DNA of 24,557 bases from a virus. The stretch's first letter is position 1, and each line of letters opens with the position of its first letter. The DNA lies in the IMG/VR virus record IMGVR_UViG_3300042361_000037, positions 1-24,557 of that record; one strand, written 5' to 3'. The notes under the pieces were generated by a model. That model did not search any database and was not told the origin of the DNA. It saw nothing but the letters and a program-made list of their open reading frames with translations. A program made the translations under genes and the position numbers. Shown piece by piece: positions 5,258 to 23,053 of the stretch.

Positions 5258-5736
5258 TATAGCTCCGGCTGTGGTGCAGGTGCAGGTGCTGGCTTGCCGC
5301 CGTAGCCCATGATAACTTGTCCAGCTGGTGCAGGTGCTTCAACATTGAAAGATGTCTCTGCTCTCATAACAGGTGCTACAGATGCTTTAGCAGGCTCAGC
5401 TTGTACTCTTGCAAACTCAACAGTATTCTTAGCGGCCGAATTAGCATTATCTTGTGCTTGCTTCATCATAGCCATCTTTGCATCATTCTCTTCTTTAGTG
5501 CCGCCAGCAAGCATAATGCCTGATAGTGTACCAGTCAAGAAAGTGGCAATAGGCACAATCAACTCAAAGAATTTCTGATCAATTGGGCTGATAGCATTCA
5601 GTGGTTGTGTCACAAAAATTAGTGAGTACAACACAACAAATACGATACCAGTTAGAGTCAATGCAAGACATACGCCGATGAAAAACTTCAATCGGGCCAT
5701 CAATTGCTCTTCGGTGTACATTACATTATTTTGCAC
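5257..5736 (-). CDS. Two-segment membrane protein with proline/alanine-rich tail (159 aa)
   Basis: After a short cytoplasmic part (MYTEEQLMARLKFF) come two membrane segments: FIGVCLALTLTGIVFVVLYS and, about 25 residues later, IVPIATFLTGTLSGIML. The remainder is a charged helix followed by a low-complexity tail ending KPAPAPAPQPEL. I know similar proteins only as conserved hypotheticals of marine T4-like phages. The start is decided by the ribosome binding site: AAAGGAG at 5749-5743 is six bases before a GTG at 5736, whereas the ATG at 5721 is too far away and the ATG at 5805 would overlap the previous gene by 80 bases. It overlaps the previous gene by 11 bases. Confidence 0.75.
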   Translation of the reverse strand: MQNNVMYTEEQLMARLKFFIGVCLALTLTGIVFVVLYSLIFVTQPLNAISPIDQKFFELIVPIATFLTGTLSGIMLAGGTKEENDAKMAMMKQAQDNANSAAKNTVEFARVQAEPAKASVAPVMRAETSFNVEAPAPAGQVIMGYGGKPAPAPAPQPEL

Positions 5737-6019
5737 AGGCTTCTCCTTTAGCTGGCGCTGGGCAAGTCGCTGGCGCAACTGCTCCCAAAACATTTTTATT
5801 TTCATCTGGTGGTCCTAATCTAGGGTCTCTCTGCCCTTTGAATACATGTTCAGGGCAAGTTCTTGTCACATCACATGCTGGTTTTTGACAAACTGGTTTA
5901 TCCCAGTTTTCTGGATTTTGGCAAGGATAGCGAAATCTATCACCACCAAAAATAGCTAGTGCTAGAGGTAAAAGAATTAATACACCTAGCCACTTAAATA
6001 ATTTCACATCACTGTTCAT
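5726..6019 (-). CDS. Membrane-anchored cysteine-rich protein (97 aa)
   Basis: One membrane segment near the N-terminus (LFKWLGVLILLPLALAIFGG) is followed by a hydrophilic domain with six cysteines, in YPCQNPENW, VCQKPACDVTRTC and near the end in ATCPAPAKGEACAK. The domain is probably periplasmic and disulfide bonded. No family recognised. It starts with a one-base overlap with the endolysin stop and lies within the lysis gene group, so a role at the envelope is plausible but unproven. Confidence 0.7.
   Translation of the reverse strand: MNSDVKLFKWLGVLILLPLALAIFGGDRFRYPCQNPENWDKPVCQKPACDVTRTCPEHVFKGQRDPRLGPPDENKNVLGAVAPATCPAPAKGEACAK
5743..5749 (-). promoter_or_regulatory. Ribosome binding site AAAGGAG that sets a GTG start
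   Basis: AAAGGAG on the minus strand, six bases before GTG at 5736. It lies inside the preceding gene and is the reason for choosing the GTG over nearby ATG codons. Confidence 0.7.
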
Positions 6020-6645
6020 TAGTGTGCTCCCAAGACATGGAGCGCATGTTCATAATGCTTGATACGATCCTCAAGACCAATAGTGCCGCCGTTGATTCGC
6101 TTTGTCAATGTAACAATATCACCCTTGTCAGCCCACTGATTCAGATTGTTTGTTTCCCAGAACCAGCAAGCTGATTGTGCAGCACCTTCAAACGTCAACA
6201 GATATTCGGACGCATCTTCTACTGAAATTTGTAGAGATTCTGCAAACCATGTGTAGTTGCTCTTGCCCGTCAATTGAATCAAGCCCTTGCCAGCATAGCG
6301 CCAGCCGTCACCAGTTTCTGGTGCACCATTGCCCATACGATTAGCATACACCAGATTAGCAATAGCTTCCTGCTTGTTTGGCTTACTTGCATATTCGTTT
6401 GCCATAGCATCAGTTGGAAAATACTTTGGAAAAATCTTGCGTAGAGTTACAGCCTTATAATTCAGATTTTCTTTGAGTACCATGAAGTTACCAGACTCAT
6501 GGGCACACTGTGCAACAAATGCTGCGATACGCTGTGGTGTATTGATGTTATAATCAGGCAGCAATTGTGACAGCGCGGCATGCCAGTTGTCGATGTATGG
6601 ATTCTTCGGTAGAAGTTTCCTTAGTTGGTCTTTAGTTAGTTCCAT
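6019..6645 (-). CDS. Endolysin, glycoside hydrolase family 19 type
   Basis: A 208-residue single-domain enzyme of the GH19 (chitinase-like) lysozyme family, which in phages cuts the peptidoglycan glycan chain. The first catalytic glutamate is E50 in AQCAHESGNF. The second conserved block is NRMGNGAPETGDGWRYAGKG followed by LIQLTGKSNY, which forms the rest of the active site and substrate groove. A late KRINGG motif is also typical. There is no signal peptide, so it needs a holin for export. It sits directly after the two spanin genes, forming a full lysis module. Confidence 0.93.
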   Translation of the reverse strand: MELTKDQLRKLLPKNPYIDNWHAALSQLLPDYNINTPQRIAAFVAQCAHESGNFMVLKENLNYKAVTLRKIFPKYFPTDAMANEYASKPNKQEAIANLVYANRMGNGAPETGDGWRYAGKGLIQLTGKSNYTWFAESLQISVEDASEYLLTFEGAAQSACWFWETNNLNQWADKGDIVTLTKRINGGTIGLEDRIKHYEHALHVLGAH

Positions 6646-6911
6646 TATTGTAACACCTCAAATATTTTTTGTTGTTTTTCATGCCACTCAATCCATGCAT
6701 CCATTTTGACTGCACAGCTATAATACATGTTGTAATTCTCGGTAACATTTTTTGCAATATCACTCAACTTTGCGTCCTCAGCTAACAGCTTCAGTGGAGC
6801 ACATTTTTGTTTCAGCATAAGTGGAGCATCTGGAAATTTCATAGTGACGGGCACAGTTGTTGAACAACCCACCAACAGAAATACCATAAAGCATGTTATG
6901 ATTGATTTCAT
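6645..6911 (-). CDS. Outer membrane spanin (o-spanin) lipoprotein candidate (88 aa)
   Basis: The N-terminus has a signal sequence ending in a lipobox, LLVGCST, so the cysteine would be lipid-modified and the protein anchored in the outer membrane. The rest is a short helical periplasmic domain ending in KMDAWIEWHEKQQKIFE. Position immediately after an inner-membrane spanin candidate, with an ATGA overlap, is the classical Rz/Rz1 arrangement, and the endolysin follows. Spanins fuse inner and outer membranes in the last step of lysis. Assignment rests on lipobox, size and gene order rather than sequence family. Confidence 0.8.
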   Translation of the reverse strand: MKSIITCFMVFLLVGCSTTVPVTMKFPDAPLMLKQKCAPLKLLAEDAKLSDIAKNVTENYNMYYSCAVKMDAWIEWHEKQQKIFEVLQ

Positions 6912-7363
6912 TTTTTTGCATCCGGCGGTGTTGCTGCTTTGTTCAGTGAAATTATGAATTCTTTAGGTATTTCACACTCACCGCCAGCGATAAATTTTGT
7001 GTCGTACTTGATAACCTCTTTGTCAACATACTTGATAACTTCTTCACCACGCTCTTTAACGATCTTTGTATTGTTGACCACTTTCTCAACAATTTTGACA
7101 TTCTCTTCCGCAGCTTTGGCTTGCGCTTCAGCGACTTTGATTTGAAGTTCCTTAACTCTTGCTTCCCACTGTTCGTTGTTACTGATTGCACCTGCCATGT
7201 AAGTGCCCAATGCTATCAAAATAATAGACACCATCTGTATCGGTGTCTTATAGACATATACAAACGGAATGAACTTCATGACAAAAGTTGCAGCAAGACC
7301 TAATACACCAGCTAAAAAGCAAGCATAGAAAATCCAGTTAGGAAGCCATTGCAAAATCCACAT
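6908..7363 (-). CDS. Inner membrane spanin (i-spanin) candidate (151 aa)
   Basis: Two hydrophobic segments (about residues 8-30 and 42-60) are followed by a long alanine-, lysine- and glutamate-rich coiled coil (about 65-115) and a tail with GGECEIPKEFIISLNKA. The cysteine-plus-LNKA ending is typical of Rz-like i-spanins, which usually have only one membrane segment, so the extra one is unusual. The coiled coil would span the periplasm to meet the lipoprotein encoded next. The stop overlaps the o-spanin start as ATGA. Confidence 0.75.
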   Translation of the reverse strand: MWILQWLPNWIFYACFLAGVLGLAATFVMKFIPFVYVYKTPIQMVSIILIALGTYMAGAISNNEQWEARVKELQIKVAEAQAKAAEENVKIVEKVVNNTKIVKERGEEVIKYVDKEVIKYDTKFIAGGECEIPKEFIISLNKAATPPDAKK

Positions 7364-7364
7364 T

Positions 7365-7697
7365 TTAGTTGCCTCTGCCGTATCTCAGGTATACCATTGC
7401 ACCAGTTTGTTCATCTTCTAGCACAATGCCTTCTTTCCAGTTGGCATTAGCATAGTCTGCAATCTCTTTGGACACACCAGAATCACCAAGATAGGATTCA
7501 AATCTGGCGCCCTTACGTTTCAGCATCTTAGCCATGACAAAGGATTTGGATGGCACAGTGAATACGGTAGAACCAGCAAACTTCTTACGTTTAATGCCTG
7601 GTTCAGCTTGATTTGGAATATTAGGGTTTGGCACACCGATACCAGCTACATTACCACCACCTACAGAGTTTGTTGGAGCATCTTCTTTTATTGTCAT
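7365..7697 (-). CDS. Conserved T4-like phage protein of unknown function (110 aa)
   Basis: The N-terminal 30 residues are glycine- and proline-rich (NSVGGGNVAGIGV, PNPNIPNQAEPG), resembling a flexible linker. The compact C-terminal part contains KKFAGSTVFTVPSKSF, AKMLKRKGARFESYLGD and a final TGAMVYLRYGRGN. I recall similar proteins in T4-like cyanophages only as hypotheticals. The start overlaps the previous gene as ATGA. A virion role is possible from its place in the late block, but nothing in the sequence proves it. Confidence 0.75.
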   Translation of the reverse strand: MTIKEDAPTNSVGGGNVAGIGVPNPNIPNQAEPGIKRKKFAGSTVFTVPSKSFVMAKMLKRKGARFESYLGDSGVSKEIADYANANWKEGIVLEDEQTGAMVYLRYGRGN

Positions 7698-8086
7698 TTT
7701 ATTTCCCTAAGAACCTCAGCAACTTTCATGTCAACATCTATGTCTGACGATATGATGTTATTGCCTCTAATACCCATAACAACACTCGGCATGTAATTTA
7801 GAAACAGCAGATATGTTTTGAGTGTGTGGTAATCCTCTTTATGTACCTTGAAAAACAACATTCTAGTAGCAACTTCAACACCAAAAACATTGTATAGCAC
7901 TATCAAGTGATTGATGACAAGACGCTCACGCATCTCGCCTTCTTTTCGATAACGATAGAACAGGCGCTTCAAATAATTGAACCGCTTCATGTCTTCTTTG
8001 AACTCACTCATAATGCAATTAGGCTTATCATAAGCCTTGACTGCATATAGTAGGATGTTCTCACTAGTCAAATCATCAAAAGACAT
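7694..8086 (-). CDS. Conserved T4-like phage protein of unknown function (130 aa)
   Basis: A basic, mostly helical protein beginning MSFDDLTSENILLYAVKAYD, with FNYLKRLFYRYRKEGEMRER and LVINHLIVLYNVFGVEVATR in the centre. No membrane segment or signal peptide. The pattern is familiar from conserved hypothetical proteins of T4-like marine phages, but I know of no assigned activity. It starts one base after the stop of the capsid-targeted protein at 8450-8088. Confidence 0.78.
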   Translation of the reverse strand: MSFDDLTSENILLYAVKAYDKPNCIMSEFKEDMKRFNYLKRLFYRYRKEGEMRERLVINHLIVLYNVFGVEVATRMLFFKVHKEDYHTLKTYLLFLNYMPSVVMGIRGNNIISSDIDVDMKVAEVLREIK

Positions 8087-8087
8087 T

Positions 8088-8450
8088 TTAGCTTTCGTCT
8101 TCCCCTTCCAGTTCAGACATTGCTTGCTCTACACCACTTTCATCCATAATCTCAGCATAAAAATCATAGTATCCATCATCCGTTGGATAATACAGAATAT
8201 ACAGAAAACTATCGCCAGATAAGTGTGTTGCTAATTCTTCACCTTCAGTGTTCAAATCATAAAGGGACTCAAATGCGATTCCCTCAAGATAAAGTATTTT
8301 ACGAATCTTTGCGATACCCGATTCTGGTGTCAAGACAGGCTGAGTTAGCTCAACCATCAACAACAGATTGAGTTTACCCTGCGTTACTGAGTCAATGGAG
8401 ACTTCATCTCCACCATCCATTGACTCCGTGATGAATTCTTTGAAATTCAT
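8088..8450 (-). CDS. Small acidic protein with capsid-targeting-like N-terminus (120 aa)
   Basis: The first residues MNFKEFITES match the T4 capsid targeting pattern, with I-T-E at positions 7-9 as a possible prohead protease site. Cleavage there would release an acidic protein of about 110 residues. The body has a predicted alpha/beta domain (LNLLLMVELTQPVL; IAKIRKILYLEGIAFESLYD; FLYILYYPTDDGYYDFYAEI) and an acidic tail ending in ELEGEDES. No family recognised. It overlaps the stop of the previous virion gene as TAATG. Packaging into the head is an inference. Confidence 0.78.
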   Translation of the reverse strand: MNFKEFITESMDGGDEVSIDSVTQGKLNLLLMVELTQPVLTPESGIAKIRKILYLEGIAFESLYDLNTEGEELATHLSGDSFLYILYYPTDDGYYDFYAEIMDESGVEQAMSELEGEDES

Positions 8451-9010
8451 TAGCTGTCTGCAAACACTGTGTCATCGGAAGCGTCAGCAACACCTGCTTG
8501 ACCGATGCTGCCCATAGCAACAAGAGTCTCTGTGTGTTCGCGCCCGACACGACCACCCATGGTGATTGTAATTGATACGTTAGAGTTTGGCACCGCGCCG
8601 ATTGTTGGTGCAGCCAAGTAGTTACCACCAGTTGTCAGTGTAATACCAGTAATCAACTTTGCACCGTTTGTAACGATACGTGCGTTAGCGGAAGTGTTAC
8701 CTGTGCCACCGCCAGTGAATGTCAAGAATACGTTACCGTCAGGTGAGTATGAACTTGCATTCGCTGTAAGTGTTGCAACAGGACCTGTGCCTTGCTTTAC
8801 AACAACCCAACCTGCGTGTGCTCCTTTTGGATTAGCCGCAACGCCCTGTTCAGTACTGTCAACACCGAAAATGCCAACAGCTTGTCTAGGTGTGAATGCA
8901 CCGATAGTTGTGCTACCAAACAGTGTTGCTCCGTTTGCATTGTTAGTAGCTGCAACGCCTGCGTGTTTTGGTGCCGCGTTGCTTGAATCTGATTTTGCCC
9001 ATAGTGTCAT
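8450..9010 (-). CDS. Probable virion structural protein (186 aa)
   Basis: A glycine-, threonine- and alanine-rich beta protein beginning MTLWAKSDSSNAAPK, with repeated short beta segments (TTIGAFTPRQAVGIFGV, VFLTFTGGGTGNTSA, ITLTTGGNYLAAPTIG) and a C-terminal RVGREHTETLVAMGSIG. This layout resembles small structural proteins of T4-like cyanophages with the same kind of start and end. It follows a late-promoter-like box and has AGGAG nine bases before the ATG. Exact place in the particle is unknown. Confidence 0.75.
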   Translation of the reverse strand: MTLWAKSDSSNAAPKHAGVAATNNANGATLFGSTTIGAFTPRQAVGIFGVDSTEQGVAANPKGAHAGWVVVKQGTGPVATLTANASSYSPDGNVFLTFTGGGTGNTSANARIVTNGAKLITGITLTTGGNYLAAPTIGAVPNSNVSITITMGGRVGREHTETLVAMGSIGQAGVADASDDTVFADS

Positions 9011-9033
9011 TTATGACTCCTTTTGTTATTGTT

Positions 9034-9041
9034 TATTTATG
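9034..9041 (-). promoter_or_regulatory. Late promoter-like box CATAAATA
   Basis: CATAAATA on the minus strand, one mismatch from the T4 late consensus, 23 bases before the ATG at 9010. As at 23074-23081, the stop codon of the upstream gene (TAA, 9039-9037) lies inside the box. Confidence 0.45.
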
Positions 9042-10704
9042 TTTTGATGATCTGTGATGATAGCTCAGGTTCAGCTTGGAATGTATCAGCTTTTTCTTTG
9101 CTAGATGACTTAGAATTCTTAGCCAAATCTTTTACGATGCCAGCAGTCTTAGACAGTGAACGTTTCGCAGGTGTGCTTGTTTTCTCAAAAGAATCTTCCG
9201 GCTCTTGCTCTTCTTTTAGACCTGCTTGTTTACGTGCAGCAGTCTTTGCGAGGTGCTTAACTCTAGACATTGCTGTGTGTTTTGCGCCAGATTTGTCTGT
9301 TGTCACTTTTGTTGTATTTTTGGTATAAGGACCATCAAATGGAACCTCATAACGCTCTTTACCCAAGTCTGTTGCAGTTTGTTCAGCAGTAATGATAGGT
9401 GTAGGCTTCGCAGGCTTCTTAGCTGGTCCGGATGTGAAACGACCAGCGTCCGGATTCTCGTTGGAGTTGCTAGTTTGACCAACTTCTTCCGCCACAACAC
9501 TCTCAGCTTTGTACTTCTTAAACATATCAGTACCTTTTCTTGGTGCAAGACCTTGTGTGCGATATGCAGCAGCAGAAACAGCAGCGTATCGTTTTGTCTT
9601 CTTACTCGCCTCAGCGTTTGTGCCGGTGCCAGGCAATTCTCTTGCGCTGTCCATTGCTTTATTGACATAGGAGCCAAGAGTTTTCTTTGACAACTCATCA
9701 ATCTGCTCAACTTCTTCCTTCATCCCTGTACGGCGAGACTCACCTTCAATGTATGAGTGTAGTGATTCTACATCACTTTGAACTTTAGATAGTTTGTTCT
9801 GATACCACTCTTCAATTTCACCACCCATCTCAATGAACTCAAGAATTTCTTCAGCGGCATACTTGATGAAGTGTAGTTGCGTTTGGGCCATCTCAGTTTT
9901 TTCGGTGGTATCCGATTCAGCTTGCTCATTGATTTCAGCTTGTTTCAGAATACCTTTGACCAATGGTGCCTTTAATTGACGATGACGTGGAACTGGAATG
10001 TGGTGCTTTGCTTCTGGATGTGTGTATACATCGTGGCTACCTGATGTGCGCGAAAGTTTCCAACCACGCTTCTTCAGATGTTGATGCACAGCACGGGTAT
10101 CCATGTTAGCACCAGGCATTTCATCTAGTTGCTCAACATCAACAGACTCATCCCACTGCTTACCACGTGCCGCATTTCTAGCCGCAGATTTTGCACCATA
10201 GTTTTGTTGCAGTCTCTCAGCATCATACTTATGTACTGTAGCGCCTTTGACTTTCTTTGCAACGTTCTCGGCATGAGACTTGGTATCAAATGTTTTCCAG
10301 TGACGACCATTGACATGTACTGAGTGATAGTCTTTGGCGTCAGCTTCGGCCAGTTCAACCTCTTCATTAGTCTGTGAGTTTTTCAAATCCTTCTCGGATG
10401 GTGCACCCTCTGAGCCAGGCTTACGCATACGTTCACCTGAACCTTTTTTGATTCTTTCACGCTTGGCATGAATGTTGTCCCACAGACCAGCTTCTTCAAT
10501 GGTTTCTTCTTCTTTGATGGATTTGCCAGCAGATTTATCACCATAAGTTGCCTGACGTTTTTTAGCAAGGTCGAGCTTATCTTTGACAGCTTTTCCCAAC
10601 TTCGGATCAGCCTTCAGCATCCATCCTGTTCCAAGAGACTTTTTACCCTCTTCCAAAATGTCCTCACCGCGGACAAGACTTGCAATCTGCTTGAAACTTC
10701 TCAT
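9037..10704 (-). CDS. Capsid cargo polyprotein candidate with HicA-like RNase domain (555 aa)
   Basis: The N-terminus MRSFKQIASL resembles a capsid targeting sequence, and LEE at 17-19 is a possible prohead protease site. Segments in order: basic linker (20-115); HSVHVNGRHWKTFDTKSHA domain (127-165); LDE site at 193-195; HicA-like domain (200-256) with GSH (222-224) and a later VPRH; INE site at 258-260; helical EEW-containing segment (275-320); one DELSKKTLGSYVNKA module (336-350) as in the neighbouring repeat protein; low-complexity lysine/serine/alanine tail. The start at 10704 is chosen because it has GGGAG upstream and lies one base after the previous stop; the frame from 10788 would overlap that gene. 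I infer a head-packaged, protease-processed effector precursor; a scaffold-type role is the alternative. Confidence 0.8.
   Translation of the reverse strand: MRSFKQIASLVRGEDILEEGKKSLGTGWMLKADPKLGKAVKDKLDLAKKRQATYGDKSAGKSIKEEETIEEAGLWDNIHAKRERIKKGSGERMRKPGSEGAPSEKDLKNSQTNEEVELAEADAKDYHSVHVNGRHWKTFDTKSHAENVAKKVKGATVHKYDAERLQQNYGAKSAARNAARGKQWDESVDVEQLDEMPGANMDTRAVHQHLKKRGWKLSRTSGSHDVYTHPEAKHHIPVPRHRQLKAPLVKGILKQAEINEQAESDTTEKTEMAQTQLHFIKYAAEEILEFIEMGGEIEEWYQNKLSKVQSDVESLHSYIEGESRRTGMKEEVEQIDELSKKTLGSYVNKAMDSARELPGTGTNAEASKKTKRYAAVSAAAYRTQGLAPRKGTDMFKKYKAESVVAEEVGQTSNSNENPDAGRFTSGPAKKPAKPTPIITAEQTATDLGKERYEVPFDGPYTKNTTKVTTDKSGAKHTAMSRVKHLAKTAARKQAGLKEEQEPEDSFEKTSTPAKRSLSKTAGIVKDLAKNSKSSSKEKADTFQAEPELSSQIIKT
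9937..10107 (-). other. HicA-like RNase domain inside the polyprotein
   Basis: Residues 200-256 read as a compact HicA (YcfA) mRNA-interferase fold: a first helix DTRAVHQHLKKRGW, the strand-turn TSGSHDVYTHP with the catalytic-type histidine, the strand HHIPVPRH and the last helix PLVKGILKQAEI. Size, order and the G-S-H motif all fit. No HicB-like antitoxin is encoded beside it. Confidence 0.8.
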
Positions 10705-10705
10705 A

Positions 10706-12499
10706 TTACTCTCCCTTGGCTTGCTTGGTGGCCGTAGCGTACATAACAGACTTAGCATCTTTGCCATAACGCTCTTTGAAGCCAGCAATGTTCTTCTTCA
10801 TGCCTTTGACATTCTTTTCCAATGCAGCCTTTTCAGCGGTGGTCAATGAACGCTCTTCAATTTGCTCAACTTCTTCCTTAGCTAAACGATCAACAGCTTT
10901 GCCCATGTTTTCGCGGCGCTTCCAAGACTTAGCAAAAGTTTTATCTGCTTTCTCCATGCTCTTTCTAGCATCATTGTAGCGTGAATCTTTACGTGCAGCT
11001 TCTGAATCATTAGCATGTTGACGAGTCAATGCGCCCTTGTGTGCAACATCATGAGATGCTTTCTTGACATAGGATGCTAGTGTAGACTTCTTTAGTTCAT
11101 CTAGTTGTTCAAATTCTTCAGTTTGCATGAAGTTTTCAACATCTTCAACAGTAAATTCAAGTTCATCTAAGTTTTCATATTCTTCTCTAGTCAAACGTTT
11201 AACAGCTTTTTTAACGCCGCGGTCTCGCTTTTTAATCACACGCTGATCTGCTTTCATTTCGCGGGCGTTACGAACCTGATCAGCTTTTTTTTCAGGTTGG
11301 GCACCATACGCCACGCTTGCAATATTATGCTCTCTATCTGCTTGACTTCTTACAGCTTTATTGATGTATGAACCGAGTGTCTTCTTACTTAACTCATCAA
11401 TTTGTTCAACTTCTTCTTTAGTCAAACGATCTACCGCTCTTTGTATACCAGTAGTTGAATTTTTAAGTCTACGGAAGTTTCCTGGCGTCCTACGATTTCG
11501 TTCCAGTGTAGTAAGATGATGACCTACCTCGTGTGCGGCATACCTCACCCTGCCTTGGGCTTTATTGATATATTTACCAAGAGTCTTCTTGCTCAGTTCA
11601 TCTAGTTGTTCAAATTCTTCAGTTTGCATGAAGTTTTCAACATCTTCAACAGTAAATTCAAGTTCATCTAAGTTTTCATATTCTTCTCTAGTCAAACGTT
11701 TAACAGCGCGATCAACGCCGCGATTTCGCTTTTTAATCACACGTTCATCTTTTTTTATTTCGCGGGCTTGCTGTTTCACATCAGCTTTTTTTTCAGGTTG
11801 GTCGCCAAAGTGCAGACGTCCAATATTATAATCTTTATTTGCTACACTGCTTACAGCTTTATTGATGTATGAACCGAGTGTCTTCTTACTTAACTCATCA
11901 ATTTGTTCAACTTCTTCTTTAGTCAAACGATCTACCGCTCTTTGTATACCAGTAGTTGAATTTTTAACTTTACGGACATGTTGTGGGGACGGTTTAAGTT
12001 TAGAAACATCACGTCCTATCATGTATGATCTATTTCTCACATTATCTCGGGCAGCCTTAATATATTTACCAAGAGTCTTCTTGCTCAGTTCATCTAGTTG
12101 TTCAACAGATTCTTGCTTGACAGCTTGCACAGCAGGCTTTGCAACTTCAGCTTTGCTCTTGCCAATGGACTTGTCTTGTGCTATCTTGATCTCTTTGTTG
12201 AACTCTTCTTGAGATGCTTCTTCTTTTGTATACTTCTTAGTGTACACAGTGCCTGTGGAGATTTTCTTAGCATCGTGGCCAGTCTTCTCACCTTTTTCAG
12301 CAGTTTGGCGTGGAGTATTCTTCCAGTCAAATGGGCTAGCAGGCTTCTTGGCTTCCTCTTTGCGCAACAACTTGAAGTCGTGTGCATCAACTTTGCCGTT
12401 TTTGTTTTTATCGATCTTGTGTTGATCGCCTTTCAGTGCTTCGTCCACAACAGCTTTCACTGCTTCGGCCACTGATTTTAGAATTTTATCGTTGAACAT
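10706..12499 (-). CDS. Repeat protein with EF-hand and DELSKKTLG modules (597 aa)
   Basis: Residues 30-41 (DKNKNGKVDAHD) form a canonical calcium-binding EF-hand loop. From about residue 130 the protein consists of lysine- and glutamate-rich helical modules that each open with [LI]-D-E-L-x-K-x-T-L-[GA]-x-Y, at 135, 200, 299, 367 and 466, and close with basic RAV(D/K)RLT segments. Modules 2 and 4 are 167 residues apart. Each [LI]-D-E is also a possible prohead protease site. No membrane segment. Similar DELSKKTLG repeats occur in T4-like marine phage proteins of unknown function. Possible roles are prohead scaffold or core, DNA-binding internal protein, or precursor of many small peptides. AAGGAA upstream supports the ATG at 12499. 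Confidence 0.82.
   Translation of the reverse strand: MFNDKILKSVAEAVKAVVDEALKGDQHKIDKNKNGKVDAHDFKLLRKEEAKKPASPFDWKNTPRQTAEKGEKTGHDAKKISTGTVYTKKYTKEEASQEEFNKEIKIAQDKSIGKSKAEVAKPAVQAVKQESVEQLDELSKKTLGKYIKAARDNVRNRSYMIGRDVSKLKPSPQHVRKVKNSTTGIQRAVDRLTKEEVEQIDELSKKTLGSYINKAVSSVANKDYNIGRLHFGDQPEKKADVKQQAREIKKDERVIKKRNRGVDRAVKRLTREEYENLDELEFTVEDVENFMQTEEFEQLDELSKKTLGKYINKAQGRVRYAAHEVGHHLTTLERNRRTPGNFRRLKNSTTGIQRAVDRLTKEEVEQIDELSKKTLGSYINKAVRSQADREHNIASVAYGAQPEKKADQVRNAREMKADQRVIKKRDRGVKKAVKRLTREEYENLDELEFTVEDVENFMQTEEFEQLDELKKSTLASYVKKASHDVAHKGALTRQHANDSEAARKDSRYNDARKSMEKADKTFAKSWKRRENMGKAVDRLAKEEVEQIEERSLTTAEKAALEKNVKGMKKNIAGFKERYGKDAKSVMYATATKQAKGE
11094..11206. repeat. 113-bp direct repeat A, copy 1
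   Basis: Identical by eye to 11595-11707, 501 bases away. It encodes the REEYENLDELEFTVEDVENF segment and the start of the following module, in the same frame in both copies. Confidence 0.9.
11349..11466. repeat. 118-bp direct repeat B, copy 1
   Basis: Identical by eye to 11850-11967, again 501 bases away. It encodes KNSTTGIQRAVDRLTKEE and the EQIDELSKKTLGSYINKA module opening. Confidence 0.9.
11595..11707. repeat. 113-bp direct repeat A, copy 2
   Basis: Second copy of repeat A. Between the A and B blocks the two 501-bp units are clearly diverged, so identical and diverged stretches alternate. Confidence 0.9.
11850..11967. repeat. 118-bp direct repeat B, copy 2
   Basis: Second copy of repeat B; see 11349-11466. 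Confidence 0.9.
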
Positions 12500-14178: not shown

Positions 14179-14556
14179 TTAGCAATTCCATTTTCTTAGT
14201 GCGAGAGCTTTACGGGACGGCTCTCCGTTAGGTTTCTTCATCGGACCTTCCACTCCACCCATTCTAGCACAGAATGACTTGCGACGGTTAGCAGCTTTAC
14301 TGCCCGGTGTCAATTTTGATGGTGGTGTTGTAACCGGTGCTTTTAGATTGCCGCCATCTTTTCTGTTGTAGTAGTCACGACCCTTTTGAGTTAGACCACC
14401 AGTAGAGCTTTTTAGTCCTTTAGCATCAACTGCGGCTTCCACTACAGTTTCTTCTTTCATACAAGAATCGGGTGAGTATGCTTTCTTACCTGGAACAGGT
14501 TTATAGCCTTTCCAGCAGCGCCCAGCTTCAGTGACAAAATCTTTATAGTTTTTCAT
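14179..14556 (-). CDS. Capsid-targeted small basic protein with four cysteines (DUF6321-like), 125 aa
   Basis: The N-terminus MKNYKDFVTEAG is a capsid-targeting-like sequence with V-T-E before A. Then come CWKGYKPVPGKKAYSPDSC (cysteines 14 and 32) and a strongly conserved-looking end: LTQKGRDYYNRKDGG, SFCARMGGVEGPMKKPNGEP and ALALRKWNC (cysteines 96 and 125). This C-terminal half matches my memory of the DUF6321 family found in T4-like phages. The four cysteines could bind zinc. It is strongly basic and could bind packaged DNA or RNA. The start overlaps the polyprotein stop as ATGA. Confidence 0.82.
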   Translation of the reverse strand: MKNYKDFVTEAGRCWKGYKPVPGKKAYSPDSCMKEETVVEAAVDAKGLKSSTGGLTQKGRDYYNRKDGGNLKAPVTTPPSKLTPGSKAANRRKSFCARMGGVEGPMKKPNGEPSRKALALRKWNC

Positions 14557-17084
14557 AGGTAATTCTTTCCTCTGAACGTGCTAAGTGATATGCCATGTTT
14601 AGCCAGTTCATCTTGTTTTTGTGCACCAATTGACGCTGTGGTTGAATCCCCACCCATTTCAGCAACAGGTTTCTTTTTCAGAGGATTCACTTTGCCATTC
14701 TTGTCATTGATTTCGCCCATGTCACGCCCAATGCCTTCGCCACCAGCAGCCATGGACATGCCAGTTTCTATGCCTTTGTCGATGGCTTCTTTGAACGTGT
14801 TTTTGGCTTGCGAGAGGGTGAGCTTGCCTTTAAAGCGGCTGGCTTCGTGGATGTTTTTGGTGCTGGCTTCGGCACTGGCACTGGCACTTGTTCCTGCACT
14901 GTTACCACTGGAACTTCCACTTCCACTTTCGGTAATGGCTCTGGTACTACTACGACCGGAACTTCCACTTTCGGCAATGGTTGTGGCTCCGGTGCTGACT
15001 CCGGCACTACGGCTGGTGCTTCCACTTTCGGCAATGGTTGTGGCTCCGGTTCCACTGGCGGTTTGCTCTTCACAAAGAAACTTTTCACGAATTTCAACAT
15101 TTACATTCTCCTTTAATTTAACTATGTAACCTTTGTCTGTCTTAACGACTTCACCACCTTTGGTGTGTGCGTCTTTAGCAGCATTGTTTCGTATTGCATA
15201 TACTTTAGGCTTGTTGCCTGATGCAATATATGTAGCTCCATCTTTTACGGCAGTTCTTTCACCACTGATACTTTCGGAGACAAACATGGATTTTCCGAGC
15301 GTCAATAGATTGTATGCACCAGAATCAGACATTTCTGTGTGGTCCACGTGCTCCTCAACTTCCTGCTCTTCCACTTCTGCATCTCCATTGCCAGTCAGCA
15401 TCTTCATTGCTTTTTGTAGCTCTTCTGGGGTATCAGCTTTGAAAGTAACTGAAACGGCCTCAAAAAGATTCTGAAAATCTTCGTTGATAGACTCTTTGAC
15501 TGGTTTCTTGGGCACAGGCTTTTGGCTACTAGCTCCACTCATAGGAACTTCAGCAGTTTTCTTAATCATCTTTTGCTGTTCAGCGTGTGTTGGATCCTGC
15601 ACCAAAGTTCCGTGAACTGTGTGATGTGTGACTTTACCATTCTTACCATATCGGCCATAGCCATAGTATTGTAGCCCAAGGCGTCTAGCTTCATCAGTTG
15701 CTTTGTTTTCGCCCTCAGCGGAGTGTGGAATAGACAGTTCCGTGCCTTTCTTAGGAACAGGCAAGGTGTCTTTCTTCTGTAGTTCACCAGCAACCCAAGC
15801 CTTAGCTTGCTCATTCTTAGGTGGTGCTTGAACAAACTTTTGGACAGTCTTGAAGATGTTGTTCATCTCTTCTTTCTTGGCTTTGACCACTTCTGGTGCT
15901 GCGGTGCGCAAGTCTTCAGAGTTATCAAATTCAATATAGCTGTTGCCAAACAACTTAGCCATCTCTGGGCGTGAATTGTTTACTGCGTCCCACTTTTCTT
16001 TACGAATATTCTCAGGAACTGTACGACCACCTCTTTGCCCACGCTCAACGTTTCTCTGTGCAGAAATTTCATCGCGTGTAACAACGGCAACCATAGAAGT
16101 TTCATAGCCAATTTCTTCTAAGTTTTTCTTTATCTTGGCATACTTTGCGGGATCATCGCCTGTGCCATTGATAATGATGCCGTTGCGACCCAACAGCGCC
16201 AGCTTCTGCTTCAACTCTGTCATGTCTTTTGCTTTACCGCGAACAAGTGTCCGTGCATCAGCTTCAGTCTCTGGCATTTTCTTGTCCAGATTATTCTTGT
16301 CCATCAGAAACTCAAGTGCTTTGTCTGAGTTGATTTCAATCAAGCCATGACCAGCAAGTGTGTTATCCAACACATAGTCTTTACCTGAGCCTGGACCGCC
16401 CGATAGAAACACAGCCTTGAAGATGCCTTTATCGTGGACACCCTCAGATAGGATCATCTGAATTTGTGATCGGAAATCTTCTTTGACTTGCATTCCCTTG
16501 CGCACATCATTATACAATTCTTTAGCGTGTTCTGGCGCTACGTGACTTGGAATGCCTTTTTTGAATTCTTTGAAGTTGCCTTTTGATGCATGGCTACGCA
16601 TCTTGGATGCAGACATACCAGATACACCCTCAGCATCAGGATCACGCTCACCAGCGGAGTGTACGTGAATACCACGAAACTTGAAGTATCCATGCGTACC
16701 TTTTACGCCATTGTATTTGTGTAAAATCTTCTCATACTCACCAGTTCTATCGGATCCTGCAACCATGTGCAAATGTGTAGCGCCAGCTTTGTGGAGTTTT
16801 GATGCTTGAGCCAGAAAGTTTGGATGTTCTTTACTGGAGGTTGTGATATTCGTGTCAGGAAAATATCGTTGTGCGTGTTTGACTTTTTGCTCACCTGAGA
16901 GTGGATTCTTCTCAGCGTCCTGTGAATGCGATAGAACAACGTGGTGTGTTCCCTTCACAGATTTAGCAACATCTTTGACTTTATCAACCAGTTTTGCATG
17001 ACCGGTTGTTGGTGGATTCATGCGTCCGAACGCAAGGACCGCATGTTTTTCTGTTGTTTCTTCTAAATATTGTCTGAACTTCAT
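14553..17084 (-). CDS. Capsid cargo polyprotein candidate: nucleotidyltransferase plus zeta-like kinase (843 aa)
   Basis: Segments in order: targeting-like MKFRQYLEET (1-10); nucleotidyltransferase of the NMN-adenylyltransferase type with GRMNPPTTGH (20-29) and SGMSASKMR (155-163); LSE site (212-214) before G; P-loop kinase with GGPGSGK (229-235), NSDK (252-255), NGIIINGTGDD and RNVERGQRGGR (344-354), resembling zeta toxin; sites INE (533-535) and LFE (540-542); a small alpha/beta segment (545-665); a serine/glycine/threonine stretch with IAE, IAE and ITE each before S (684-719); IHE before A (745-747); a glycine-rich end. GGAG precedes the ATG at 17084. The serine-rich stretch is also read in another frame (see 14768-15100). 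I infer a head-packaged precursor cut by the prohead protease; a cytoplasmic multidomain enzyme is the alternative. Confidence 0.82.
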   Translation of the reverse strand: MKFRQYLEETTEKHAVLAFGRMNPPTTGHAKLVDKVKDVAKSVKGTHHVVLSHSQDAEKNPLSGEQKVKHAQRYFPDTNITTSSKEHPNFLAQASKLHKAGATHLHMVAGSDRTGEYEKILHKYNGVKGTHGYFKFRGIHVHSAGERDPDAEGVSGMSASKMRSHASKGNFKEFKKGIPSHVAPEHAKELYNDVRKGMQVKEDFRSQIQMILSEGVHDKGIFKAVFLSGGPGSGKDYVLDNTLAGHGLIEINSDKALEFLMDKNNLDKKMPETEADARTLVRGKAKDMTELKQKLALLGRNGIIINGTGDDPAKYAKIKKNLEEIGYETSMVAVVTRDEISAQRNVERGQRGGRTVPENIRKEKWDAVNNSRPEMAKLFGNSYIEFDNSEDLRTAAPEVVKAKKEEMNNIFKTVQKFVQAPPKNEQAKAWVAGELQKKDTLPVPKKGTELSIPHSAEGENKATDEARRLGLQYYGYGRYGKNGKVTHHTVHGTLVQDPTHAEQQKMIKKTAEVPMSGASSQKPVPKKPVKESINEDFQNLFEAVSVTFKADTPEELQKAMKMLTGNGDAEVEEQEVEEHVDHTEMSDSGAYNLLTLGKSMFVSESISGERTAVKDGATYIASGNKPKVYAIRNNAAKDAHTKGGEVVKTDKGYIVKLKENVNVEIREKFLCEEQTASGTGATTIAESGSTSRSAGVSTGATTIAESGSSGRSSTRAITESGSGSSSGNSAGTSASASAEASTKNIHEASRFKGKLTLSQAKNTFKEAIDKGIETGMSMAAGGEGIGRDMGEINDKNGKVNPLKKKPVAEMGGDSTTASIGAQKQDELAKHGISLSTFRGKNYL
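14768..15100 (-). CDS. Embedded overlapping gene candidate: proline-rich, basic-tailed protein (110 aa)
   Basis: This frame lies wholly inside the polyprotein gene in another frame of the same strand. It begins MLKFVKSFFVKSKPP, continues with three PEPQPLPKVE-type repeats (third shortened to PEPLPKVE), valine/proline dipeptides, and ends in a lysine-, serine- and proline-rich basic tail (SPSRKPKTRSKKPSTKA). AAAGGAG stands seven bases before its ATG, a better ribosome binding site than most genes here have. The four base substitutions between repeats 2 and 3 keep this protein unchanged but alter the polyprotein. The extended proline region and basic tail recall TonB-like spacers and DNA-binding tails; no function can be assigned. 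Confidence 0.6.
   Translation of the reverse strand: MLKFVKSFFVKSKPPVEPEPQPLPKVEAPAVVPESAPEPQPLPKVEVPVVVVPEPLPKVEVEVPVVTVQEQVPVPVPKPAPKTSTKPAALKASSPSRKPKTRSKKPSTKA
14962..15050. repeat. Tandem repeat region with two identical 32-bp units
   Basis: The 32 bases at 15019-15050 and 14962-14993 are identical and 57 bases (19 codons) apart; a shortened, diverged third unit follows at about 14910-14945. The repeats encode PEPQPLPKVE in one frame and TGATTIAESG in the other. Confidence 0.85.
15108..15114 (-). promoter_or_regulatory. Strong ribosome binding site AAAGGAG inside the polyprotein gene
   Basis: AAAGGAG on the minus strand with seven bases to the ATG at 15100. Its presence in the middle of a long gene supports translation of the embedded frame. 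Confidence 0.6.
15885..16421 (-). other. Zeta-toxin-like P-loop kinase domain
   Basis: Residues 222-400 of the polyprotein: AVFLSGGPGSGKDYVL (Walker A), NSDK after the second strand, NGIIINGTGDD as the third strand, and an arginine-rich lid ERGQRGGRTVPENI, where zeta-type kinases place their substrate and phosphate contacts. Other P-loop kinases (gluconate or polynucleotide kinase type) share parts of this pattern. Confidence 0.65.
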
Positions 17085-20766: not shown

Positions 20767-21072
20767 TTACTGACCTGGAGTATCTCGTTTGTATCGCTTG
20801 ACTAGCAAGTCTGTGCCCTCTTGCCCTGCGCCAGCTGGTGGCAGAATGTCTGGATTAGGAGACTTCTTTTCTTCATGCACACTTTTATGTAGCTGAACTC
20901 CAGTGACTTTCTGGACCATATCCCAAGCATCCTTTGTTCGCTTGTTCTTCACATGATCATCAAATTTCTTTTTCTGTTCAGGTGTAGCTTTTTGCTTGAA
21001 TTTGATAAGTTCCATAATGCCGATGTTACCAGCATAAGATGCTTCTTTCACCAGTTCTTTGAATGACTGCAT
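20767..21072 (-). CDS. Small basic protein with capsid-targeting-like N-terminus (101 aa)
   Basis: Starting at the ATG that overlaps the previous stop (TAATG) gives MQSFKELVKEAS, a targeting-like sequence with V-K-E before A. The rest is lysine-rich and helical (KFKQKATPEQKKKFDDHVKN, DAWDMVQKVTGVQL) with a tail containing PPAGAGQEGTDLLVKRYKRD and TPGQ at the end. No family recognised. The GTG at 21084 would add four residues before the motif and is less likely. It may be a small internal head protein. Confidence 0.75.
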   Translation of the reverse strand: MQSFKELVKEASYAGNIGIMELIKFKQKATPEQKKKFDDHVKNKRTKDAWDMVQKVTGVQLHKSVHEEKKSPNPDILPPAGAGQEGTDLLVKRYKRDTPGQ

Positions 21073-22304
21073 TATTTGTCCCACGCTTTCTGTGCGGTGA
21101 AGTTTGCATGACTGAATTCAAGTCTATCAACCAACTTGACGGCATTACCTTTTAGTCGATCAACAGCAACAAAGCCTTCTGGATTCGTGACCTTAAATCC
21201 ATCATCTGTACGTAAGAATGCACCAGTAACTTGACGCATCTGTTGTAACTTTTTGATAATGATATTCTTGGAATCAACGATCATATTCATGATATCAAAA
21301 ATCTTAACAAGCTCGGCAAAGTTGCTTCGATAGAATCGCATGATTTCATTCTTTTCAGCTTGACGCTTGAGTTTAGTGTCTTCTCTTTTAGCGGCAATAA
21401 TCTCTTTGTTCAGCTTGTCTTCAATCCATTTCAACAGTCCTTTCGCATGTTCCGTTGTATCTTTGATGTGTTCACCGGAACGAACTTTCGTGTTGTTGTA
21501 TGTTTTGATCTGAACATTGAATATCTCAGAGGTAGCAATACGATTCAGGGTCATGCTACTGGTTCTTTGGAACAGGGATCCTGCTTGAGATAAAATAGCT
21601 GTGATTTCTTTAGTCTCTTTTTCGGTAAATGTGACTGTACCAGATGCGTCAACGAAATATGCATCACGGAACCAAACATCCTTAGTTGCTTTCATTCTAC
21701 CAATATCGATGTTGAATGAAGACTTCAAATCTGCGATTGTCTTTCCTGTGTATGCCGTATGAAACACAATACCCATTTGTGCTGTCAACATGGACTTAGC
21801 TAGTGCAGAATCTTCAGGAACCGCATACACGATTGTGTTTGGTTGAAATGTCACATACTTGACACCATCAATCGTTGCTTTCTTGATATCACCTTTAGCA
21901 AACATCATGTCGCCTTGCAGAATGCCATCGATACCAATCTTAGGCAAGTATGCTAGTGCAACCTTCAGTTTCTTATTCAGGCCTTCACCTGGATGATTTC
22001 TGTCAATATCTTCATCGGTGTAGTTCAGCTTTGCATCTTTGTTGAAGATGCCTTTTGTGGCTACAAAGAACTTACCATTCTCTGGATTAGTGCCAGCAAA
22101 TACAGCAGGTGCACCGTCCCATTTTGTGGTAATGTTTACCTTGCCGTCTGAATTGCCAGCAAGCATGTCTCTGAGTGATCGCAAAAAGTTGATTGCATCT
22201 CTCGTACCAGCTACACCGCGATTTAGAACTTCTTCCTCGATATGCTCTAGGTGAACGTTCTTGCCTTCTTTTGAGGACTCTGTTAGGAATTCTTTGAATT
22301 TCAT
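21072..22304 (-). CDS. Capsid-targeted KxDG nucleotidyltransferase-like protein (410 aa)
   Basis: The first ten residues MKFKEFLTES are the clearest capsid-targeting-like sequence here, with L-T-E before S. Residues 59-70 (TTKWDGAPAVFA) contain K-W-D-G, the lysine motif used for covalent AMP or GMP attachment by DNA/RNA ligases and capping enzymes. GIDGILQGDMMF and GIVFHT could be motifs III/IIIa and IV. Similar proteins of this length occur in T4-like marine phages without known function (I recall DUF6267, unverified). RNA ligase, DNA ligase or a non-catalytic relative are all possible. The ATG at 22304 shares a base with the previous stop; a GTG at 22316 is the alternative. Confidence 0.75.
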   Translation of the reverse strand: MKFKEFLTESSKEGKNVHLEHIEEEVLNRGVAGTRDAINFLRSLRDMLAGNSDGKVNITTKWDGAPAVFAGTNPENGKFFVATKGIFNKDAKLNYTDEDIDRNHPGEGLNKKLKVALAYLPKIGIDGILQGDMMFAKGDIKKATIDGVKYVTFQPNTIVYAVPEDSALAKSMLTAQMGIVFHTAYTGKTIADLKSSFNIDIGRMKATKDVWFRDAYFVDASGTVTFTEKETKEITAILSQAGSLFQRTSSMTLNRIATSEIFNVQIKTYNNTKVRSGEHIKDTTEHAKGLLKWIEDKLNKEIIAAKREDTKLKRQAEKNEIMRFYRSNFAELVKIFDIMNMIVDSKNIIIKKLQQMRQVTGAFLRTDDGFKVTNPEGFVAVDRLKGNAVKLVDRLEFSHANFTAQKAWDK

Positions 22305-23053
22305 TACGTAAAACACCCTAAACTTAAATCTTTTTTGATAATTGTGACACTTTTGCCATCAACTGGAGCAATGTTGAATGGTGATTTTTTGCTTGATGGT
22401 ATAGAAAATTGCATTTCAAAAGTGAACTGATAATTGCCGCTACCTTTATATTGAACCCTGGCTCTATAAGTTGCTTTTGCAGAAGTACCGAAGCGAGGAA
22501 CGTCTTTCAGCTTTAAGGGATTTTTTGAGCCCATTAAGTAGAAACCGTGAGTGCCAACATTTACATAGTAAGTATCTTTTTTGTTGTAATAATCTTCAAT
22601 TTCTTTTGCACTAATCTCACCACGAATATCTTGAAAAGTATCTCTATCCCTTTCATATCTCTTTTGAGGAGATAGTTTACCTGCAGTGGCTTCCCATAAT
22701 GGATCTTTATCTCTCTTGAAAGGAATTTCTTTCCACTCAGCTTTAAGTCTTTTGAATAATCCAACTTCTTCAGCTAGATTCTTAATAAAGAACTTTTCAG
22801 CATCATCTTCACTGACATTGCCAAATTTCCAGGGACTTTTTTTATCTTTCGCATCATATTTCAAAACAAGGGAACCAGCGGACGCTGCCGTGATTTTCAA
22901 TTCACAACCAGCTTTGTCTTTCTTATGTTCAAGCATCAAATCTGGTTGATCATGTCCTGCTCCCGCTGGCTTAAAACTTTTAGGCACAAGACCCATAGGT
23001 TTCAAGACATTAGCGGCATTTATTTCGTATTGGAAGCCTTGTTGAGCGGCCAT
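22304..23053 (-). CDS. PD-(D/E)XK nuclease-like protein (249 aa)
   Basis: Residues 30-55 contain AGAGHDQPDLMLEHK followed by GCELKIT: a P-D (37-38), a spacer of 12 and E-L-K (51-53), the arrangement of PD-(D/E)XK nucleases. The rest is lysine-rich with a beta-rich second half (RVQYKGSGNYQFTFEMQFS) that might recognise DNA. It has no targeting-like N-terminus. The start at 23053 is chosen because GGAG lies six bases before it; the ATG at 23065 would be almost at the predicted transcript start. It is the first gene behind a late promoter, so it is probably made late and could act on DNA during packaging or as a restriction-like enzyme. Confidence 0.72.
   Translation of the reverse strand: MAAQQGFQYEINAANVLKPMGLVPKSFKPAGAGHDQPDLMLEHKKDKAGCELKITAASAGSLVLKYDAKDKKSPWKFGNVSEDDAEKFFIKNLAEEVGLFKRLKAEWKEIPFKRDKDPLWEATAGKLSPQKRYERDRDTFQDIRGEISAKEIEDYYNKKDTYYVNVGTHGFYLMGSKNPLKLKDVPRFGTSAKATYRARVQYKGSGNYQFTFEMQFSIPSSKKSPFNIAPVDGKSVTIIKKDLSLGCFT

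Follow-up and report, generated by a model that had tools for sequence, protein, structure and literature searches.

The 501-bp repeat described here probably belongs to a T4-like phage's modular head polyprotein, in which basic modules are connected by joints of the gp21 type, are most likely separated by cleavage at these joints and are exchanged as recombining cassettes. The window, i.e., the whole stretch of 24.6 kb that was analyzed, is an IMG/VR virus record with T4-like genes, among them genes that encode a DnaB-like replicative helicase (PHROG 19) and a structural protein of the virion (PHROG 1645). The entire repeat is contained in one gene on the minus strand (P0001, positions 10706-12499, 597 amino acids), the frame of which is open through both copies. 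Relatives of P0001 with the same two ends occur in many phages and differ in the number and kind of modules located between them.

Architecture of the Modular Gene

P0001 is composed of a conserved N-terminal part, the array A1-B1-x-A2-B2-x-C and a conserved C-terminal peptide, all of them encoded on the minus strand. The N-terminal part (residues 1-137; 12089-12499) ends at LDE| and is conserved in relatives, with a dN/dS of 0.06 in comparison to the close relative L005. It is followed by module A1 (residues 138-202; 11894-12088), a predicted basic peptide with limits set by the [LI]xE sites, by module B1 (residues 203-279; 11663-11893), a helical hairpin in the structural model, and by the acidic segment x1 (residues 280-301; 11597-11662). 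The second unit comprises module A2 (residues 302-369; 11393-11596), a weak sister of A1 (support 0.90), module B2 (residues 370-446; 11162-11392), the sister of B1 (support 1.0), and segment x2 (residues 447-468; 11096-11161), which has the same DNA as x1. Module C (residues 469-549; 10853-11095) is common to the window and close relatives, and the C-terminal peptide (residues 550-597; 10709-10852) is kept in nearly all relatives. The cores of B1 and B2 align with a score of 129, compared to at most 44 for any other module, while the cores of A1 and A2 are unequal in length. As B1 and B2 are closest relatives and A1 and A2 weak sisters, it follows that the A-B-x unit was duplicated. Cleavage at all joints is predicted to yield basic peptides of 65-81 residues with a pI of 9.7-10.4, as well as an acidic peptide of 22 residues and a C-terminal one of 48.

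No Pfam family scored above cut-off for P0001, and NCBIfam gave no match. DUF7443, DUF2795 and EF-hand appeared among the sub-cut-off Pfam matches and were rejected as its identity, all of their scores being under the cut-off. Among the PHROGs, it matches PHROG 5709, a family of unknown function, and weakly a tail family. Near the N terminus, an EF-hand- or dockerin-like loop (DKNKNGKVDAHDF, 12365-12418, minus strand) lies below the Pfam cut-off and is kept by most relatives.

A module profile made from five modules of P0001 matched 232 domains, distributed over 120 frames, in the first locus set and 166 domains in 65 further loci. The module was present in at least 414 confirmed viral loci versus one metagenome-assembled contig from 84,980 prokaryote genomes and is thus essentially restricted to phages. 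Isolates carrying it are Caulobacter phage Cr30, Synechococcus phage S-SKS1 and Prochlorococcus phage P-TIM68; no virion proteome of such an isolate was found in the literature searched. Related modules vary in length. The AlphaFold2 model of the module is a two-helix hairpin (mean pLDDT 92), with the linker modelled as part of helix 1 at lower confidence (mean pLDDT 74). The structure alignment omitted two of 38 rows, probably from named phage records, and a few others. A BFVD fold search gave nothing with E < 0.2, as is expected for a plain hairpin, and neither a PDB sequence search nor Pfam contained a relative of the module. Likewise, no description of the module was found in Pfam, NCBIfam, PDB or the literature searched, and no prior description was found in the literature on the module or on polyproteins in combination with a prohead protease.

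Identical and Diverged Blocks of the Repeat

The earlier note had described the repeat as an alternation of exact and diverged blocks, and this was confirmed to the base. At an offset of 501, a 113-bp block (11094-11206 and 11595-11707) and a 118-bp block (11349-11466 and 11850-11967) are identical in every base, while 38 of 142 bases are mismatched between them (11207-11348 versus 11708-11849). An additional identity of 46 bp occurs at an offset of 492 (11568-11613 and 12060-12105). The 113-bp block contains the end of B, x and the start of the next module, and the 118-bp block contains the end of A, the joint and the start of B. Hence, the identical blocks represent joints together with the adjoining module ends and the diverged blocks represent module cores. 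The cores of A1 and A2 share only 57% of their bases. The clustering of mismatches in the core compared to the identical blocks (38/142 versus 0/231) is significant (Fisher P = 3e-18), also at synonymous sites alone (6/30 in the B cores versus 0/44 in the joints, P = 0.003). Between the units, the B1 and B2 cores feature a dN of 0.35 and a dS of 0.23, compared to a dS of 0 in the flanks. With joints lacking any synonymous change and B cores having accumulated several, a single duplication that aged evenly is excluded; the earlier note had expected uniform similarity from one recent event. Tandem Repeats Finder does not list the repeat because its periods were limited to 500.

The gene with both copies is found unaltered in two IMG/VR contigs from different metagenomes (L003 and L004), in which 10.3 and 13.8 kb align to the window with 4 mismatches. 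A further contig (L007/L105) is 100% identical to the window across 11,206 bases and stops exactly where the 113-bp block does, at 11206.

Joints and the Putative Cleavage Motif

The module joints consist of an acidic linker with the consensus KEEVEQ[IL]DE, most often KEEVEQIDE, which ends in [LI]xE. The same linker stands ahead of about 150 different sequences, many of which are not hairpins. The prohead protease gp21 of T4 cuts after Glu in the motif L/I-X-E (PMC9026906). In P0001, all eight [LI]xE tripeptides are located at joints and none within modules, and this placement was replicated in two module sets: Glu occupies the P1 position of 142 of 149 domain hits to full-length modules in the first set and of 107 of 114 modules in the independent set. 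Still, roughly 30% of the second-set modules have no recognizable site after them.

Moreover, the motif is avoided inside the parts that would be released. In the variable cores of the first set, [LI]xE was not observed at all, compared to 8.9 occurrences expected from shuffling, and the 114 modules of the independent set contain 1 versus 14.4 expected. The control motifs [LI]xD, [LI]xQ and [LI]E were not depleted in the cores and [LI]xK was enriched there; [LI]xxE was likewise somewhat depleted in both module sets. In unrelated frames of the same loci, [LI]xE is enriched 1.35-fold. The T4 record, used as positive control, behaves like P0001 in this respect, with ipII and ipIII each holding one [LI]xE at the targeting cut FIAE|A. 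Cleavage of P0001 by the prohead protease, with small basic peptides as products, is therefore probable.

The window itself is a fragment without head genes and contains neither gp21 nor gp23. Among 13 large related records, 10 encode gp21 and 11 encode gp23, including the close relative G005/L035, and the gp23 N termini in relatives feature a plausible [LI]xE maturation site at the expected end of the propeptide (YLTE|A, LLE|A, LNE|T). Targeting-like N termini, defined by a loose pattern, were found in 92 of 2502 frames of all loci versus none in shuffled sequences. By the same loose pattern, five genes of the window start like T4 capsid-targeted proteins, and three of them (8088, 14553 and 21072) include the strict [LI]xE in this start. 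The earlier note had suggested a modular protein with variable middles, as in antigen- or target-variable proteins. The first part of this suggestion stands, the protein being modular and its modules being swapped between phages, but a role as antigen or surface target is unsupported; the protease-site signature rather suggests a location within the phage head.

Turnover of Modules and Cores

The synonymous sites of the linker are free to vary, as only 47% of same-residue codons match between phages. The comparison with homologues revealed an uneven divergence of module C. Its ends have a dS of 0.2-0.3 against L005 and L008, similar to the rest of the gene and at the level of the genomic background, whereas synonymous sites in its core are saturated, with 14.7-15.7 changes over 19 of them and a dN of 0.33. 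This indicates replacement of the core and not merely fast amino-acid change. Accordingly, an exchange of cores between conserved ends fits better than point-wise diversifying selection, although selection may contribute in addition. The proposal of the earlier note that recombination or gene conversion keeps the module ends alike is supported.

Close relatives have gained or lost whole modules, often with an overlap of 12-17 nt at the junction. Across all related pairs, the counts of which are not independent, 41% of the breakpoints of similarity lie within 10 residues of a linker, compared to 12.6% for random positions. The phage contig L128 shows the same pattern as the window, with identical module tails and cores of 50% identity. 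When possible donors of the A1 and B1 cores were searched for, only the same phage was matched, and an exact search for the x segment returned only the same three contigs. Besides, the 22-residue acidic segment (11096-11161 and 11597-11662) was also encountered in the otherwise different phages L020, L025, L026, L029 and L080, where 14-15 of 17-18 same-residue codons are identical. This value lies well above the linker background of 47% and suggests a recent exchange of the segment among these phages.

Alternative Explanations

Several other explanations were considered for the repeat. P0001 might be an uncut repetitive scaffold or structural protein with EEVEQIDEL...Y as part of the hairpin fold, whose repeats expand, contract and recombine. 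This is unlikely, even though the confident helical-hairpin model takes in the linker and a weak match to a PHROG tail family exists, as one linker precedes about 150 different and often non-hairpin sequences and a requirement of the fold leaves the avoidance of [LI]xE and the enrichment of [LI]xK in the cores unexplained. Far less probable is one old duplication followed by point selection that diversified the cores and by purifying selection that preserved the ends, as would apply to an antigen- or target-variable protein. The dN of the B cores does exceed their dS, but the latter is itself raised to 0.23, and the joints feature no synonymous change in about 44 sites despite linker codons that vary freely between phages. 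In addition, the core of C is synonymously saturated between close relatives with ends at background level, and whole modules are gained and lost. Diversifying selection, which the earlier note had offered as a possible cause, is thus not upheld as the main one.

It is also very improbable that the repeat is an assembly artefact in the form of a strain-variant chimera. The break of contig L007/L105 exactly at a block edge would be compatible with such an error; nevertheless, the same order occurs in two other assemblies which truly differ elsewhere, the open frame is maintained and L128 shows the same pattern. Finally, variable blocks alternating with constant ones could recall the targets of a diversity-generating retroelement. 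This is highly unlikely and the candidate was rejected, since a reverse transcriptase (PF00078) was absent from all 10 large related contigs, mismatches are of every type and at every codon position, and the A cores as well as related modules are unequal in length.

Comparison with Known Head Protein Systems

The internal proteins of T4 are encoded by single genes and receive one N-terminal cut; they are targeted to the capsid, processed by gp21, injected into the host and directed against restriction. P0001 resembles IPI, IPII and IPIII in its predicted small basic products and in the confinement of [LI]xE to the processing site. The setting is likewise similar, comprising a T4-like phage, gp21 in relatives, window neighbours with targeting-like starts and a strong variability between phages. 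In contrast to the internal proteins, the P0001 gene holds many modules with one site per joint, and a sequence relation was not seen. Furthermore, the N terminus of P0001 contains only the VxE motifs SVAE and VVDE and no strict targeting sequence ending in L/I-X-E, for which reason it is not classed as an internal protein.

The T4 core protein gp22 is cut into several fragments at L/I-X-E, which mostly leave the head. Multiple cuts at this motif, as predicted for P0001, are shared with the scaffold protein gp22 (and gp67), but those in P0001 would release folded modules, and its cores avoid the motif. A third point of comparison are the polyvalent proteins, which feature many domains per chain, are shuffled between elements and are thought to be packaged and partly released by proteolysis (Iyer et al., 2017; PMC5512222). 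P0001 is similarly shuffled and multi-part, and its neighbours in the window carry HicA-like and Zeta-kinase domains. The modules of P0001, however, belong to one family of small hairpins without a recognized enzyme domain, and instead of an embedded peptidase, the general prohead protease is presumed to act on them. An assignment to the polyvalent proteins was rejected, as no enzymatic or effector domain is apparent from Pfam (nothing above cut-off) or NCBIfam (no match).

Proposed Function of the Polyprotein

In the proposed mechanism, the polyprotein would enter the prohead core and a gp21-type protease would cut each joint. The basic peptides freed in this way (65-81 residues) would remain associated with the DNA and may reach the next cell by injection, as is the case for the T4 internal proteins. 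The joint would have a double use, namely as cut site and as a shared stretch of DNA for the exchange of cassettes or cores. With joints conserved in DNA, recombination can add, remove and swap whole modules and cores, and such swapping would leave joints identical and cores diverged. For P0001, this would imply a duplicated A-B-x unit with recently homogenized joints (dS 0) and cores which are either older or replaced. In T4, different GmrSD restriction enzymes are inhibited by the internal proteins, which face pressure to diversify (PMC12373910). As a tentative extension, T4-like phages of natural waters might possess a cassette system for injected proteins, with joints acting as protease sites and as recombination hot spots for changing anti-defence peptides.

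If the proposed reading is true, a motif at each joint which is purged from the cores would offer a simple way to interpret hundreds of unannotated phage proteins and to predict the peptides released from them. It would also account for how such phages could rapidly renew their internal proteins. Under the tentative extension, one gene could be loaded with changing small anti-defence peptides, and the joints would guarantee the release of each cassette.

Neighbouring Genes and Related Polyproteins

Adjoining P0001, a second polyprotein gene (9037-10704, minus strand, starting from MRSFKQ) encodes a HicA-like domain and one hairpin module with the same joints. The HicA-like domain (PF07927, E 2.4e-12; 9931-10089, minus strand) directly follows a VEQLDE| joint and looks like a toxin-type RNA-binding fold that was acquired as a cassette. 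In comparison to L005 and L008, the second polyprotein gained or lost modules at its own joints, e.g., around 9707-9723, 10134-10140 and 9485-9496. Another neighbour (14553-17084, minus strand) combines the targeting-like start MKFRQYLEE|T with a cytidylyltransferase-like domain and a Zeta-toxin-like kinase, and features three short repeats with [LI]xE near its C-terminal end (TTIAE|SGS, TTIAE|SGS and RAITE|SGS). PHROG 455 spans both the DUF6267 protein and the nucleotidyltransferase domain, which are encoded at 14553-17084 and 21072-22316 of the window. The two proteins, although separate here, are therefore probably one fused protein in other phages. In the relative L049, a polyprotein of 1432 residues (approximately 5450-9748) contains an apparent intein (CVPLDSLAIAKSGPISYEDLNVGDEILSYN ... 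TITGN|S).
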